IMG/VR virus record: IMGVR_UViG_3300047478_000083
Span: 1-42,334 of that record
Source: a virus
Length of the DNA stretch: 42,334 nucleotides
Reading direction: 5' to 3' (one strand)
Under the pieces are notes generated by a model that was not told the DNA's origin, searched no databases, and saw only the letters and a program-made list of their open reading frames with translations. The translations under genes were made by a program, and so were the position numbers. Below are positions 30,068 through 42,015 of the stretch, one piece after another. Positions within the stretch are counted from its first letter, which is position 1, and each line of letters opens with the position of its first letter.

Positions 30068-30938
30068 TTATTTAATTTTCCCCATCTTAAAATCTAAACT
30101 CGGACCGTATCCACCTTCAGCATCTAACGGTATGTCAGGCATCCATGCTGGGGGAATTCTCAGCTGGTCAATAACAAACCGTAGAACATCATCAGCCTCA
30201 TCTTCACGGGCGAGTAAGTATGCAGCGTCATGGATCGTTAACAATACTCTATGTTTCTTTGCTATGCGGAGCATAGCTTCAGCGATGATACATCGCGCCA
30301 TAGCTTGTGTTAATCCTTGAAACACTTTACTACCATACAGTTTATCACGTTCTCTTTTGTTTTTCAGAACTGACCATTCTTTACGAAGACCATTGGATGT
30401 TTGCACTTCCGACTGACGCAAGTCAGGGTATCGCATATACAGCCCCGATGGCAGCAATGCACCTTCGTGCCCCATTACTTTTATGACGCCATTACGCCCC
30501 ATCTGCATATATTGGTTATCTCTGACAGCATGAAGTAAGGCATCGCCTTGCGTCCATGTAGATACAACCTCGGTATAGTCGCTCCGGTATAGGTCTACCA
30601 TCCGCTTAGCTTCAGATTCTCCGGTGTCAATACCGCTCATCTGTTTAGTCTGTTGTCGTAATTTGTTGTGTCCAGTACCGTAGATTAGTGACAATTGGGC
30701 TGTTTTACCCATAAATCGTTGAATGTCGTTAATTTCATTGTAAGGTATGCTATACACAGTCGCCGCAAAGTCTTTATACAAATCAACCCCACGCCCCAAG
30801 GCTTCTACTTTATCCATCTGCCCAGCGAACGCCAACCCCAACCGTAACTCAATGGCTGATAAATCAGCCCCAACAATGACGTAACCTTTCGGTGCAATGA
30901 TCGCGCTCTTCAGTTTAGATTTGCGGGGAAGATTTTGA
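30068..30938 (-). CDS. DNA polymerase family A, exon 2 (palm/fingers)
   Basis: The 3' part of the polymerase gene, reached by splicing across 30939-31227. The spliced protein continues V-QNLPRKSKLKSAI and shows motif A IVGADLSAIELR, motif B QRFMGKTAQLSLIYGTG and motif C ILLTIHDAAYLL-like (LTIHDAAYLLA). With exon 1 it makes 619 codons, stop included, and a 618-residue product, short for the family because there is no 5' nuclease domain. Motif C reads HDA instead of the usual HDE, an unusual substitution at a metal-site residue. The first base of this exon completes a split Val codon. The stop lies 14 bases before the nuclease gene's start. Confidence 0.85.
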
Positions 30939-31227
30939 CCTTATATTCAAGGAAAGTCGCTACACTTCCCTCCGTTCTCTTATGAACTGCTGTCTATTAC
31001 TAAACAGAGTAGACTATATCAACACCCTCTAGGGGTGATTACCATTTCCATTACCAATAGCTTGTAATGTACTCCCGTTTCAGGGATAGTCGTTAGGCTT
31101 TTAACTAAACAATATTTTTGTTTAGTATTTAGCACGGTAGGTTGTCCTTAGTATGCCTATAGGATTTTCCCCGTTTAGGTAATTTTCGATACGCTATTGC
31201 TAGCGTAAAGCCCTCTGCGGCTACGCC
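30939..31227 (-). ncRNA. Group I intron in the DNA polymerase gene (no ORF), 289 nt
   Basis: The polymerase frame breaks after GRWSATEKNNLN and resumes at QNLPR. Removing 31227-30939 restores the frame with a Val codon (GT|T). The 5' exon ends in T and the intron ends in G, the group I boundary rule. On the minus strand, an R-like sequence CCTAACGACTAT (31097-31086) and an S-like sequence GATATAGTCT (31020-31011) form P7 through GACTAT/ATAGTC. A CACCC/GGGTG hairpin (31023-31037) fits P8. A strong TACGCTA-GCAA-TAGCGTA hairpin with a GNRA loop (31190-31207) and ACTAAACA/TGTTTAGT (31104-31126) add to the fold. No reading frame is inside, so any homing endonuclease must act in trans. Splice sites are inferred from frame and boundary bases. 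Confidence 0.85.
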
Positions 31228-32213
31228 ACGTTAAGGTTATTTTTTTCCGTTGCGCTCCAACGACCTGTTCTAGCTCCGTAATACAACAACGGTACAGGTA
31301 ATAAGCTGCCTCTATTGGGGCGCTCAGCAATCGATATAAACCGCTGGGTGCGTGTTTCTTCTAATGTAGATTTTGTACCTAACCTAGCTGCTACGATTGC
31401 TTGTACGCGGGGATCATCATGTTCCGCAAGTGCTTTAAGCCCTTCGTCAGTCTTAGCAAACGCATACGAGGGTTGCCCTTTACTGTTAAGCTTCATAGGT
31501 GGTTCAACACCAAACGACTCTAGTACAGCAGCGAACTTCTGATTAGACATCAGGTCTTCTTTCTGGATACCGCACTCATCTAGTAGTCTTTCTTTCTGTG
31601 CTTTAACATCAGCCAGATGGTCATACAGCACCGCAGTGTCTAGCATCAGTTCCGGTTTAGTATACATCTGGATCGTCATATCAATCAGCTTCAGCTCAGC
31701 TGTTGTGAACTTAGGCAACATAGCTTTGAACAGTTTGTAAGTCAGCTCTACGTCATTGATGCAGTACCCACCATAAGCTTCGATCTGTGCTTGGGAGAAA
31801 TCAGCTCTTCGCATACCAATAGCGTTATGCACCTCGATACCTTTCTTACCCAGCTCATAGTACTCAGCCAATGCTGCAAGGCTACCCCCCACAGATACCG
31901 CGTGTAGCGCCCGTGCCATACTTAATGTGCAGACTATGGCTTTAGGGTGGATACCAAAACGCCAACCAAGAATAGCCCCGTCAAACATAGCATTGTGAGC
32001 AACAACCATACTATTAGCCCAATCATAATTTGAAAGCCATTCTTTAGTGTCATCAAGTGTGCCTGTAAACCATTGAGTCTCTTCATCATTTTTCTTAACC
32101 GCTATCCCAATCACCTCAAATTGAAAGTCATTCACATAAGCTTCTGTTGTCATCTTAGATAGCGAATAATCTTTTGAATAGAACGTTTCGTAGTCGAGCG
32201 TCAAAATATCCAT
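31228..32213 (-). CDS. DNA polymerase family A, exon 1 (3'-5' exonuclease and thumb)
   Basis: Start is the ATG at 32213, which overlaps the stop of the upstream small gene as TAATG; the in-frame ATG at 32276 lies well inside that gene and is less likely. The N-terminus holds the proofreading exonuclease: motif I TLDYETF (D7, E9), motif II VAHNAMFDG, motif III YCINDVE. It then runs through the thumb to YGARTGRWSATEKNNLN before the intron. Unspliced, it would stop at a TAG eight bases after the exon and yield an exonuclease-only fragment. The polymerase probably replicates the phage genome together with the primase-helicase and SSB downstream. Confidence 0.9.
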
Positions 32214-32458
32214 TAGAAGTACCCCATCGCATGAGCTGCCCACAACACATTTGTGACAACAAACCCTGCAAACCAAAACCTTACAATCCTTTGCATTACT
32301 AAGATGTGCCCAACTGCTTGGCCTATTAAGTCTTTATCCACTTCATCAATGCAATTATCAGACTCTCTGTAACCTAGCAAACACATAACCAATACGTGTG
32401 TTGATATAGAAGAGGCATACCCAACAGGTATTGTTTTGAAGTCATCAGTCTCTTGCAT
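32213..32458 (-). CDS. Small membrane-anchored protein, 81 aa
   Basis: Stop overlaps the polymerase start (TAATG). Hydrophilic N-terminal half, then one membrane segment near the C-terminus (about 57-77, RIVRFWFAGFVVTNVLWAAHAMGY). No recognised family. Its coupling to polymerase translation may simply keep spacing. Function unknown. Confidence 0.5.
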   Translation of the reverse strand: MQETDDFKTIPVGYASSISTHVLVMCLLGYRESDNCIDEVDKDLIGQAVGHILVMQRIVRFWFAGFVVTNVLWAAHAMGYF

Positions 32459-32657: not shown

Positions 32658-32949
32658 TTCTCATCTCCTCCAGAACTTGTTTAAGTTCGTCTATATTGTT
32701 TTCGTTAACCACTAGCGATACACCACCCGCTTCTTTAATTAACCGCAGCTCTCTATCTTGCAGGGCTGTTGTCGTGCCTTTACCTGCCTTTGCTTCTATA
32801 CCTACGAATCTCCCATTTAAACAACCAATGAAATCAGGTACCCCCACTTTAGAATACATACCCCCAATAGGCATGAAGTAGTAGACCCCGTACTCTTTCA
32901 GCACTTTAGTTATCTTGTCTTTAACAAGCCCCTCTGGCGTCTTCGCCAT
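32641..32949 (-). CDS. VRR-NUC domain nuclease, 102 aa
   Basis: Single-domain protein of the usual size. GGMYSKVGVPDFIGCLNGRFVGIEAKAGKG shows the VRR-NUC signature: G-x-PD (D39) followed by an E-x-K pair (E52, K54). LQDRELRLIKEAGGV is the expected closing helix. Such stand-alone phage proteins are structure-specific nucleases, possibly cutting branched DNA such as Holliday junctions. Overlaps its neighbours by 29 and 17 bases. Confidence 0.85.
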   Translation of the reverse strand: MAKTPEGLVKDKITKVLKEYGVYYFMPIGGMYSKVGVPDFIGCLNGRFVGIEAKAGKGTTTALQDRELRLIKEAGGVSLVVNENNIDELKQVLEEMRNEFHI

Positions 32950-33130
32950 GCTTCCTCCTTTTGCTCTCTAGTGAGCGTTCAACATTTAATATCCGTGCAC
33001 ACACAGTGTGATATAGCTTATTGGGATAAGGGGTTTCCAAAACTTCCCCGCAGTATCCGCAGGTCTTCTTATAGACAACACCCTTCCTGCCCTTTCGTAG
33101 CATCACTCTAGCTTCATATGATAGAGGCAT
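32921..33130 (-). CDS. Small zinc-knuckle protein, 69 aa
   Basis: Starts GGAGATAAG-ATG, directly after the structured RNA region. Basic N-terminus (EARVMLRKGRKGVVYKK), CGYC (24 and 27), then YHTVCARILN, so C-x2-C...H-x2-C could bind one zinc. Lys/Arg-rich C-terminal helix. A nucleic-acid-binding role is plausible but not shown. Confidence 0.55.
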   Translation of the reverse strand: MPLSYEARVMLRKGRKGVVYKKTCGYCGEVLETPYPNKLYHTVCARILNVERSLESKRRKHGEDARGAC

Positions 33131-34012
33131 CTTATCTCCAGTCCCTTAGAGGGACGCAATTACAAACCATCAAGTGAATACCACTACGACCACGTTTCCG
33201 CATCCGACCTGTCCTTCTGTTACAGGCAGTGGTATTCCTTCATAGTGCTTGTCTTTCCAAGCTGTCACCGAACGATTACAAAAAACCCCGAAGCGGAGGG
33301 CCGTGTTAAGCTGATGGTTGCCAGTATTGATCTCTGGCTTACCTGTTATCCGAGACAGGCACGTTTCCTGAGCGTATCAACCTACGCATTAACCATCACG
33401 GCTGGCGACTATTCCGGTGCTAATCGACTCTCATGGTGTTCGTCTAGCTTACTAACCAATTCCTAGTGTCCGGTGCTTACGTTGTCTATAATCGCCATGC
33501 GTGATGGTGCTGGCCTTTAACATCGCCAGCGCGGATGTGATTGTCGTTAGCCCCATACTTTGCTAACACAACCAAACACCAATCTTTGCCCAGAGGGTCT
33601 TTACTGCTCGCCTTTTAACTCGCAGGATGAGGACTGCGTGGTGTTGTTTTCAAGCTCAAGAGTACTAACAATCTGATGGCTACTAGATAGAATCCCAGTA
33701 GTCGAGCCACATCGTTCACCATCAAGTGATTGGTATTTATTAGCGCATATCAGGCTTAAGCCCCGCTAACTGGTTCTTAAAATACCAATCCTTCATGATG
33801 CTGGTCACGTTATCCAGCTGCTAAATGTTTTCCGCCATTTAGTACGTAAGTACGACCGTCATCAATTGGAAATGAATCAAAACCAACGGAGCAAGATCAC
33901 TATGTAGAAACTTGGATGCCTTCGTACTCTCGGATTTTATAGGCCAATAACCGATACACGCCTGAGAACACTCCTAATGGAGAATTTACGCAATCGAACA
34001 ATCGATGACTTC
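33131..34012 (-). ncRNA. Candidate giant structured RNA (GOLLD/ROOL-like class)
   Basis: About 880 bases with no credible gene but dense nested perfect stems, in plus coordinates: 33176-33185/33228-33237 (10 bp) enclosing 33208-33212/33222-33226; 33313-33319/33391-33397 closing a junction with three hairpins (33320-33338, 33342-33359, 33372-33387); 33509-33514/33525-33530; 33546-33551/33562-33567; 33575-33581/33639-33645; 33680-33684/33697-33701; 33728-33738/33780-33790 (11 bp) enclosing 33740-33745/33764-33769; 33800-33804/33814-33818; 33821-33827/33836-33842; 33971-33982. A 12-base sequence at 33166-33177 recurs at 33718-33729 beside the two longest stems. Size and multi-junction form suggest GOLLD- or ROOL-type RNAs of phages. 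Minus orientation is inferred from the flanking genes and a promoter-like sequence upstream. Ends are approximate. Confidence 0.7.
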
Positions 34013-34018
34013 AGTTAC

Positions 34019-34047
34019 ACGATACTATTCACTATCACCTGTGTCAA
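34019..34047 (-). promoter_or_regulatory. Sigma70-like promoter candidate for the structured RNA
   Basis: Minus strand TTGACA (34047-34042), 17-base spacer, TATCGT (34024-34019). The -35 is perfect and the spacing ideal; the -10 matches 4 of 6. It overlaps the last codons of thyX and would start RNA near 34012, at the edge of the stem-rich region. Confidence 0.5.
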
Positions 34048-34609
34048 CAGGATTTCCAAAAATAATCGGGGCAAATGTTTGCAATTGTCTTTCTATCTCT
34101 GCGGCTACATCACGCACTTCTTTCTGCGCATGTTTGGTATTTCTAAGGGCGATAAAGTCTTTAAAGGCCTGATAGTTGCCAGCCACATACAGTTCGGTGG
34201 CTTGGGCTTGTGGTAGCCAGAACCGTGCATCTTGTTTAGACATACCGGTGCCCCGCAATTCGTTGTACAGCTTTCTGGCTTCTTGCTCAAACAAAATAAT
34301 AGAGTCTTTCACATCACCATTTAACTTATCAAACCCCGGCGGTCTTATGAATTCCGCGTCGCTTTCGTCACAATATCGGCTAGAGCGTACAAGGTAATCG
34401 AGATGTTTACTACGAGTAAGCTGAGCCAGACATACACGACTAATCCCCTCGACTCTAAATACGACATGACCGAAGCGTAAGACGCTAAGATGTCCAACAG
34501 AAATAATATGAGCCAGTCTAGCATCATCATTTCCTTCTCTCCCGTAACAAATTCCCGCAAAACGACCCAAGTTTGACGGGTCTGTGTATTGTTCTAATGT
34601 AACTTTCAT
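34025..34609 (-). CDS. thyX: Flavin-dependent thymidylate synthase ThyX
   Basis: 194 residues from the ATG at 34609, chosen because it forms an ATGA overlap with the preceding stop. ThyX makes dTMP from dUMP using FAD, NADPH and methylene-THF. Visible blocks: FAGICYGR, HLSVLRFGHVVFRVEGISRVCLAQLTRSKHLDYLVRSSRY, and the late RFWLPQAQATELYVAGN and LRNTKHAQKEVRD. The signature usually written RHR-x7-S appears as R66-S67-K68-x7-S76, a change at the flavin/substrate-binding motif; many phage ThyX proteins are similarly divergent. It probably boosts the dTTP supply during replication. Confidence 0.85.
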   Translation of the reverse strand: MKVTLEQYTDPSNLGRFAGICYGREGNDDARLAHIISVGHLSVLRFGHVVFRVEGISRVCLAQLTRSKHLDYLVRSSRYCDESDAEFIRPPGFDKLNGDVKDSIILFEQEARKLYNELRGTGMSKQDARFWLPQAQATELYVAGNYQAFKDFIALRNTKHAQKEVRDVAAEIERQLQTFAPIIFGNPVDTGDSE

Positions 34610-34878
34610 AACCCAAAACTCCATAGAATTAACTTACCAACAGCCAAGCCCGTCATTATTATGATGATGCAAAACATCGCATTAACTCTATCTCGTAGGT
34701 GTTCGACCAAAGCATGTGTTTGCTTATTTTCATATATGCCGTTCACATAATCGTTCCACAAGTTATTGTACAGTCGGGCATTTATCTTGTTCTCCTGTTG
34801 AACATCTTCATACCGAACAAACTCGCCTTGCTCTGATTCTTTCATTCGCCAAAAATGTTTTATTGTGTATCTTTGCAT
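34606..34878 (-). CDS. C-terminally anchored membrane protein, 90 aa
   Basis: Start at the ATG at 34878, which overlaps the previous stop as TGATG; upstream TTG and GTG codons are in frame but less likely. Charged helical body (FWRMKESEQGEFVRYEDVQQENKINARLYNN), then one membrane segment near the end (about 67-88, AMFCIIIIMTGLAVGKLILW). No family recognised. Confidence 0.6.
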   Translation of the reverse strand: MQRYTIKHFWRMKESEQGEFVRYEDVQQENKINARLYNNLWNDYVNGIYENKQTHALVEHLRDRVNAMFCIIIIMTGLAVGKLILWSFGL

Positions 34879-41201: not shown

Positions 41202-41347
41202 GGTGCATCCTCCAAAATTATCGCTTGATAAAACCAACCATGCGCCCCCTGAAATGGGTTGCCATATAGCTTCCAGCCTTGATTCAATAATACAGTTACT
41301 CGATCCTGTAACTCTGGCAAGTGGTCAGCAATAATGTCGTACTTCAT
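41195..41347 (-). CDS. DUF1737-like mini-protein, 50 aa
   Basis: ATG at 41347 overlaps the pentapeptide-gene stop (ATGA); TAA at 41195-41197. Sequence MKYDIIADHLPELQDRVTVLLNQGWKLYGNPFQGAHGWFYQAIIL fits the DUF1737 pattern 'V-x-x-LL-x-x-GW-x-L-x-G-x-P ... QA'. Small proteins of this kind are common in phages; function unknown. Confidence 0.65.
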   Translation of the reverse strand: MKYDIIADHLPELQDRVTVLLNQGWKLYGNPFQGAHGWFYQAIILEDAPC

Positions 41348-42015
41348 TGTTTTTCTCCAGTCAGGTTAGCTCCAGTCAGGTTAGCTCCAGTCAGGTTAGC
41401 TCCAGTCAGGTCAGCTTCAGTCAGGTCAGCTTCAGTCAGGTTAGCTCCAGTCAGGTCAGCATAGTGCAGGTCAGCTTCAGTCAGGTCAGCTTCAGTCAGG
41501 TCAGCTCCGGTCAGGTTAGCTTTAGTCAGGTCAGCTTCAGTCAGGTCAGCTTTAGTCAGGTCAGCTTCAGTCAGGTCAGCTTCAGTCAGGTCAGCTTTAG
41601 TCAGGTCAGCTTTAGTCAGGTCAGCTTTAGTCAGGTTAGCTCCAGTCAGGTCAGCATAGCGCAGGTTAGCTCCAGTCAGGTCATCTTCAGTCAGGTCAGC
41701 TTCAGTCAGGTCAGCTCTAGTCAGGTTAGCATTAGTCAGGTTAGCTCTAGTCAGGTTAGCTTTATACAGGTTAGCTCCAGGCAGGTCAGCATATCGCAGG
41801 TTAGCTCTAGTCAGGTCAGCATAGCGCAGGTCAGCTCCGGTCAGGTCAGCATAGCGCAGGTCAGCATAGCGCAGGTTAGCTCCGGTCAGGTCAGCATAGC
41901 GCAGGTTAGCTTTAGATTTAACGGCAAGTGTTAAGGTTTTAGCTAAGGTATTATCTGGTGCATCATGGTCGAATAGCACCGCTTGAGTGTATCTATGTTT
42001 GATTTCAATTAACAT
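41344..42015 (-). CDS. Pentapeptide-repeat protein, 223 aa
   Basis: After a short head (MLIEIKHRYTQAVLFDHD), about 36 consecutive A-(D/N)-L-x-x units run almost to the end (TGANLTGEKQ). Such proteins form right-handed quadrilateral beta-helices, often dimers; some mimic DNA and protect gyrase, others have unknown roles. Few units deviate (one EDDL). The 15-base units are so alike that the opposite strand is also open. It overlaps a second, nearly identical gene by seven bases. Confidence 0.9.
   Translation of the reverse strand: MLIEIKHRYTQAVLFDHDAPDNTLAKTLTLAVKSKANLRYADLTGANLRYADLRYADLTGADLRYADLTRANLRYADLPGANLYKANLTRANLTNANLTRADLTEADLTEDDLTGANLRYADLTGANLTKADLTKADLTKADLTEADLTEADLTKADLTEADLTKANLTGADLTEADLTEADLHYADLTGANLTEADLTEADLTGANLTGANLTGANLTGEKQ

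Follow-up and report, generated by a model that had tools for sequence, protein, structure and literature searches.

A predicted modular noncoding RNA in the gap beside thyX of a virus genome, and host-RNA-like modules in its relatives

A gene-free gap between thyX and a 69-aa open reading frame, in a virus record of 42,334 bases that was analysed whole and is referred to here as the window, raises a question of identity; namely, whether the gap encodes a large structured RNA and, if so, to which kind of RNA it belongs and what it might do for the phage.

A gap without genes and its predicted RNA

An earlier note, made from the sequence of the window, had described the gap as a giant, ornate noncoding RNA candidate read from the minus strand. 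As that note had claimed, there is no credible gene between the 69-aa ORF and thyX, and the conserved protein frame that would speak against an RNA did not appear: the stop-free frames differ between homologues and none is common to them. On the minus strand, the gap folds with −289 kcal/mol against a shuffle mean of −261 (z −4.1), and 0 of 20 dinucleotide shuffles equalled this value; the plus strand reaches z −1.8, and both z-scores rest on just 20 shuffles per strand. The proposed strand is upheld on two grounds. The tRNA-like, tmRNA-like and CRISPR-repeat modules of relatives (see below) all lie in the minus-strand sense, and a promoter-like site is found on that strand, which is weak evidence alone because the scan gives 2 sites in the region against 1.7 expected by chance. 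As this site ends at 34019, transcription would start near 34012, the boundary drawn in the earlier note. In contigs L182, L183 and L184, TTGCAC-N17-TAGTAT stands upstream of the same head as in the window.

The two longest stems reported previously, GATTGGTATT/AATACCAATC and GAATACCACT/AGTGGTATTC, are present on the minus strand, and each is followed by ACTTGATGGT, the common sequence that had suggested a duplicated module. The duplication proved correct and was exceeded: the RNA has three arms of one design (M1, M2 and M3), with a small connector hairpin before each (Table 1).

Table 1. Features of the RNA gap and its neighbours in the window
Feature	Position	Strand	Description
thyX, flavin-dependent thymidylate synthase	34025..34624	minus	upstream neighbour; Thy1 E 1.9e-38
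Sigma-70-like promoter TTGACA-17-TATCGT	34019..34047	minus	within the thyX 3' end; 10/12 matches
RNA gap	33131-34012	minus	69-aa ORF on one side, thyX on the other
5' head domain	33800..33958	minus	hairpin, long interrupted stem, connector hairpin GCTGG-ATAACGTGA-CCAGC
Arm M1, TCATGAAG-GATTGGTATT ... AATACCAATC-ACTTGATGG	33718..33801	minus	L183 arm 98% identical; fold z −4.7
Core domain, conserved	33506..33716	minus	last element is connector hairpin GCTGGC-GATGTTAAAG-GCCAGC; identity 85-89% to L003, L004, L006, L095 and L096
Arm M2	33392..33510	minus	acceptor-like stem GGCGATT/AGTCGCC; 100% identical in L182 and L096
Three-way junction with kissing loop	33310..33402	minus	loop GTTGAT pairs with the other loop ATCAAT
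Linker	33249..33308	minus	98% identical in L184
Terminator-like hairpin in linker	33286-33298	minus	CTCCG CTT CGGGG TTTTTT, from a terminator scan
Connector hairpin in linker	within 33249..33308	minus	AGCTTG-GAAAGA-CAAGC; near-identical copy, standing alone, in Pseudanabaena phage Pan5
Arm M3, TATGAAG-GAATACCACT ... AGTGGTATTC-ACTTGATGG	33166..33248	minus	94-99% identical arms in other arrays; type I-F CRISPR repeat in the same arm of relatives, absent from the window
3' hairpin GTCCC-TCTAA-GGGAC	33141..33155	minus	GTCAC-TTTGA-GTGAC instead in L003/L004/L006, compensatory
69-aa ORF	32921..33130	minus	downstream neighbour; directly after thyX in relatives without RNA here

Compensatory changes, the check that had been proposed for the stems, are frequent in homologues of both the head and the junction. 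In the head alignment (A2, 11 sequences), 95% of cells are paired and there are 13 compensatory pairs (46 cells), a result seen in 0 of 500 shuffles, and slid controls give at most 3 pairs. The three-way junction with its kissing loop was aligned in 14 sequences, eight of them from cultured phages, after removal of its variable middle; here 97% of cells are paired, with 10 compensatory pairs (34 cells; 0 of 500 shuffles) and at most 3 pairs in slid controls. The structures were drawn with the same sequences in view, so that the slid control somewhat favours them, and related sequences can beat all shuffles even without structure; the stronger point is the number of distinct both-sided changes among unrelated phages. 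Consensus folding of the raw set of close relatives was not taken as proof, given how similar those sequences are. The kissing loops pair as GCTGAT/ATCAGC, as ACTGAT/ATCAGT in Iodobacter phage PhiPLPE and as GTTGAT/ATCAAT in the window. The earlier note had also drawn a junction with 33313-33319/33391-33397 as its closing stem; it is confirmed here, and the unit that contains it (33310-33402) is conserved more widely than any other. A model with seven cultured phages only in its seed (R2) finds it at 33309-33402 of the window with 39.8 bits and a rough E value, from a short calibration, of 8.5e-10; the match comprises two capped hairpins with pairing loops, enclosed by a stem of the type TSATGGT/ACCATSA. 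The gap almost certainly encodes a structured noncoding RNA of ~880 nt that is a member of a modular phage family.

Elsewhere in the window, the Rfam gathering scan has a single match, a group I intron (30990-31243, minus strand, 61.8 bits) between two DNA polymerase A frames (31221-32276 and 30068-30841), and the polymerase gene thus appears to be split by the intron. A 223-aa pentapeptide-repeat protein is encoded close to the record end (41344-42015).

A mosaic of modules across phages

A search for close relatives through ThyX in viral contigs yielded ten loci. The RNA has a version of ~560 nt in L003 and L006 and of ~340 nt in L004, and in all three it stands after a gene like the 69-aa ORF, not between thyX and that ORF. 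In L005 and L007, thyX is joined directly to the 69-aa ORF and the RNA lies elsewhere in the same phages, after a helicase gene; the RNA is therefore kept while its place changes. Motif scans uncovered larger arrays in contigs L174-L184. These follow a common grammar of a small connector hairpin, an arm closed by CACCATSA...TSATGGT, a junction or linker and then the next arm, and members of the family differ in module number and in length, the shortest being about 340 nt and the longest more than 1000 nt. Two exact motifs sought in 84,980 bacterial and archaeal genomes were found in none, the L182 array was found in no plasmid, and loci anchored on nuclease and helicase genes held no further RNA copies near such genes.

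The best Blast matches of the window modules are scattered: the head is closest to L178 (90%), arm M1 to L183 (98%), the core to L096 and L095 (89%), arm M2 to L182 and L096 (100%), the junction to L182 (100%), the linker to L184 (98%) and arm M3 to L176 (99%). By these comparisons the window RNA is a mosaic, its module copies being 89-100% identical in different phages at different genome positions. An array of DNA cassettes, bounded by inverted repeats and spreading by recombination with no function as RNA, would fit the mosaic modules, their varied positions, the insertion of ORFs between modules of L176 and of L179, and the ACCATCA/TGATGGT inverted repeats at module edges. We nevertheless consider this very unlikely, since compensatory changes preserve pairing in heads, junctions and kissing loops, and both the T-arms described below and the fold energy of most arms are biased to the sense strand.

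In cultured phages the RNA lies in noncoding gaps, often beside tRNA genes. Alcaligenes phage CASP1 has a family member in a gap of about 880 nt (L186 2345-3227), directly upstream of tRNA-Met and tRNA-Arg. The junction unit or a recognisable part of it occurs there and in gaps of Klebsiella phages KP591P3, ZCKp20p and RCIP0108, E. coli phages HC6 and Bas80, Salmonella phage IME207, PhiPLPE and Aeromonas phage KLEA5, as well as inside a nine-tRNA cluster of Pseudomonas phage ZC08 and between the antiterminator and holin genes of an E. coli prophage. No tRNA gene was called in the stretches read for PhiPLPE, RCIP0108 and the prophage, and none is annotated in that of KLEA5. The family is common: with the HC6 RNA as query, matches were found in 958 of 50,697 phage records and in 1203 of 5426 complete E. 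coli genomes, many of them covering only part of the RNA, and among the matches listed most are unannotated. Members occur in the E. coli laboratory phages Bas77-Bas81, which makes deletion tests feasible.

Some loci of cultured phages have further features. ZCKp20p encodes a TnpB-family RNA-guided endonuclease (L192 2112-3035) near its tRNA-adjacent RNA. Long stretches without annotated genes, of about 1.6 to 2.5 kb (L206 640-3109, L203 840-2423 and L197 220-2306), belong to Kuttervirus ECML-4, Serratia phage 3M and the N4-like phage IME11; that of ECML-4 has T-arm-like elements and that of IME11 two tRNA-like genes.

Such neighbourhoods bear on a second explanation, in which the RNA serves tRNA and late operons as a leader or spacer, with units that control processing or polymerase passage and arms that are degenerate tRNA genes. 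Many cultured relatives do stand among tRNA genes or immediately upstream of them, or else between the genes for an antiterminator and a holin, and the RNAs contain internal terminator-like hairpins and T-arms without anticodon arms. However, tRNA genes are absent from the window and were not found in the array loci scanned, the same modules stand at several kinds of site, behind thyX and behind a helicase gene among others, and a leader needs neither covarying kissing loops nor a CRISPR repeat. We regard this explanation as unlikely.

Host-RNA-like modules in the relatives

The type I-F CRISPR repeat CTGCCGCATAGGCAGCTTAGAAA is present in arm M3 of four contigs (L003, L004, L006 and L096), representing two genomic sites. 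It scores 31.4 bits against an Rfam cut-off of 35 bits; its E value is 0.003 when all of Rfam is searched and 3e-7 to 1e-6 when the family is searched alone. The insert is bordered by a TGTAACA direct repeat, and the window resembles the insert-free form. Solitary I-F repeats in small phage RNAs are anti-CRISPR RNAs that bind Cas6f and Cas7f (PMC10651486). The arm at L003 5168-5289 and those of L004, L006 and L096, each a solitary I-F repeat in the arm of a giant RNA, are candidate RNA anti-CRISPRs.

T-arms occur in the RNAs nine times in sense and never in antisense, whereas shuffles lead to an expectation of 0.6 and a maximum of 4. The T-arm model of tmRNA matches L176 (E 1.1e-6) and L174 (1.9e-5), and L183 resembles tRNA-Sec with 28.5 bits, the cut-off being 47. 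ARAGORN calls no tRNA or tmRNA in the arrays, in which the tRNA-like arms fall below Rfam thresholds; some of these arms may be decayed tRNA genes. Inserts of a tRNA-like kind are possible at the position of arm M2 in relatives, and the acceptor-like stem of this arm reads GTTGATT/AGTCAAC in L175 and L183. In the window, AATAGTCGCC was considered as the start of a tag and rejected, as the acceptor-like stem accounts for it.

A tmRNA-like tag frame is present in the heads of HC6, ZCKp20p, KP591P3, IME11, Bas80, SJ46, Moogle, Serratia 3M, ECML-4, Carvaje, 4HA13 and an E. coli prophage. These heads match at E 0.0013, below Rfam cut-offs, and carry tags such as ANDDVVLMAA, ANEEMYLAVA, ANDNVFLAVA, ANDDLMMVAA, ANDNAFLMAA and ANDNTFLAVA. 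Upstream of the tag, a pseudoknot stem read by eye is CTTTG/CAAAG, replaced in Serratia 3M by TTATG/CATAA. An ARAGORN tmRNA call in Moogle was discarded, as it runs across adjacent tRNAs instead of marking a clean gene. The tmRNA-like pseudoknots with 10-residue tag frames are located at L190 1121-1230 and in L192, L195, L196, L197, L198, L200-L204 and L206, and their carriers are enterobacterial phages, a P1-like phage, Kutterviruses and an E. coli prophage; they lie in noncoding regions with no tmRNA annotation. The three-way junction model is not matched in every tag-bearing record, and the tag head is therefore an adjacent module that may exist by itself as well.

The heads of HC6, Bas80, IME11, ECML-4, the E. 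coli prophage and others, with pseudoknot and 10-residue tag frame, might suggest a phage tmRNA, with ribosome tagging and rescue as the role of the RNA. This is extremely unlikely: of the tRNA-like domain, pseudoknot and tag frame of a tmRNA, the cultured relatives have the tag half alone, with no alanine-accepting tRNA-like domain seen at the ends of the tag-bearing RNAs, whereas the window head has neither pseudoknot nor tag and the window gives no match to the tmRNA model. The core of the window RNA was also suspected by eye to be a relative of the tmRNA pseudoknot and was dropped when the tmRNA model gave no match.

Every recognisable module copies an RNA that is bound or cut by host proteins, and from this we infer, as the best of the explanations considered but tentatively, that the RNA could be a scaffold that presents decoys of host RNAs for counter-defence; for the I-F repeat, the small phage RNAs cited above provide an experimental precedent. 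A noncoding RNA of ~880 nt would be transcribed on the minus strand from about 34012, and its conserved scaffold (the head, the connector hairpins, the three-way junction locked by a kissing loop and the long closing stems) carries exchangeable arms. In relatives, arms and heads imitate the tRNA acceptor stem and T-arm, the tmRNA pseudoknot and tag frame, and the I-F CRISPR repeat. During infection these mimics would be presented to nucleases and RNA-binding proteins of the host, as decoys or as substrates, including in counter-defence, and arms would be swapped through recombination as hosts change. The idea rests on the relatives because the window copy has no I-F repeat, T-arm or tag; transcription, decoy action, and the models and targets of the three window arms are all putative, and we are much less confident of the decoy mechanism than of a real structured RNA of a modular family. 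Conservation is higher in the scaffold than in most arms, so the scaffold may have an independent role. It is possible, if somewhat less likely, that mosaic display RNAs form a widespread and hitherto unrecognised system in phages, in which cartridge-like arms that mimic host RNAs are exchanged on one folded scaffold to disarm RNA-guided or RNA-cleaving defences. To our knowledge, no function has yet been assigned to the large RNAs of phages, GOLLD and ROOL included, and related RNAs with recognisable host-RNA mimics in swappable arms provide a testable clue.

Likeness to known systems

The gap matches no family in Rfam 15, and the one result of a permissive scan of the region, a SECIS-like match (19 bits, E 1.4), was dismissed as chance. 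Neither Rfam 15 nor the open full texts searched gave us a description of the modular RNA family; preprints and most subscription papers fall outside this coverage. The earlier note had likened the RNA, in size, phage location and ornate form, to GOLLD and ROOL. The GOLLD model (RF02032; conserved 3' region, 416 positions) has no match at E<=10 in seven records, comprising the window and six others that carry the RNA; the ROOL model (RF03087; 574 positions) has none in the same seven, a weaker negative, the control having rung in no control genome. Both are also absent from permissive whole-Rfam scans of the window region and relatives. The giant, ornate minus-strand noncoding RNA and its duplicated module thus stand and membership of either class does not, although a resemblance in kind remains in size, phage origin, tRNA neighbours in relatives and variable arms.

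GOLLD assembles into a 14-mer cage. The RNA described here might work like GOLLD and ROOL and self-assemble into a cage or another multimer, with its arms as the variable parts of the particle; size class, phage origin, the tRNA neighbourhood in relatives, kissing loops and a conserved scaffold with variable inserts are shared. We think this doubtful, however: neither family is matched by sequence, the kissing loop lies inside one junction and can form within a single molecule, and a closed shell of fixed form is hard to reconcile with a module number that varies and with lengths between about 340 and more than 1000 nt.

The putative decoy-presenting RNA can be set beside several known systems. 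Like GOLLD, it is large, ornate and phage-borne, is often near tRNA genes, and has a variable and a conserved part and kissing loops; unlike GOLLD, whose model is unmatched, it has another conserved unit, its family repeats and swaps modules, and relatives hold tmRNA-like and CRISPR-repeat modules. GOLLD linkers sometimes hold tRNAs (PMC12286853). ROOL is also a large phage RNA near tRNA islands, whereas its model is unmatched and the family here is without a fixed overall architecture. The Racr anti-CRISPRs (RacrIF1, PMC10651486) share the lone I-F repeat hairpin and 3' CTTAGAAA handle with the four relatives, in which the Racr match covers model positions 6-28 of 28 below the cut-off; here, however, the repeat is embedded in the arm of a giant RNA, not in a small RNA, and both repeat and Racr membership are missing in the window. 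With tmRNA (RF00023, RF01850 and RF04321), cultured relatives have in common an H-type pseudoknot (by eye), then AUAAAU and a 10-residue tag frame with AA or VA as final residues, but the canonical tRNA-like domain was not found, scores are under Rfam cut-offs and these features are absent from the window. Phage ICP1 has a noncoding transcript of ~800 nt, its most abundant phage transcript (PMC7567579), which also comes from an orf-less region and is of similar size, a likeness by description. The RNA is a large covarying phage RNA that is neither GOLLD nor ROOL and belongs to a known kind, the large ornate phage RNAs.
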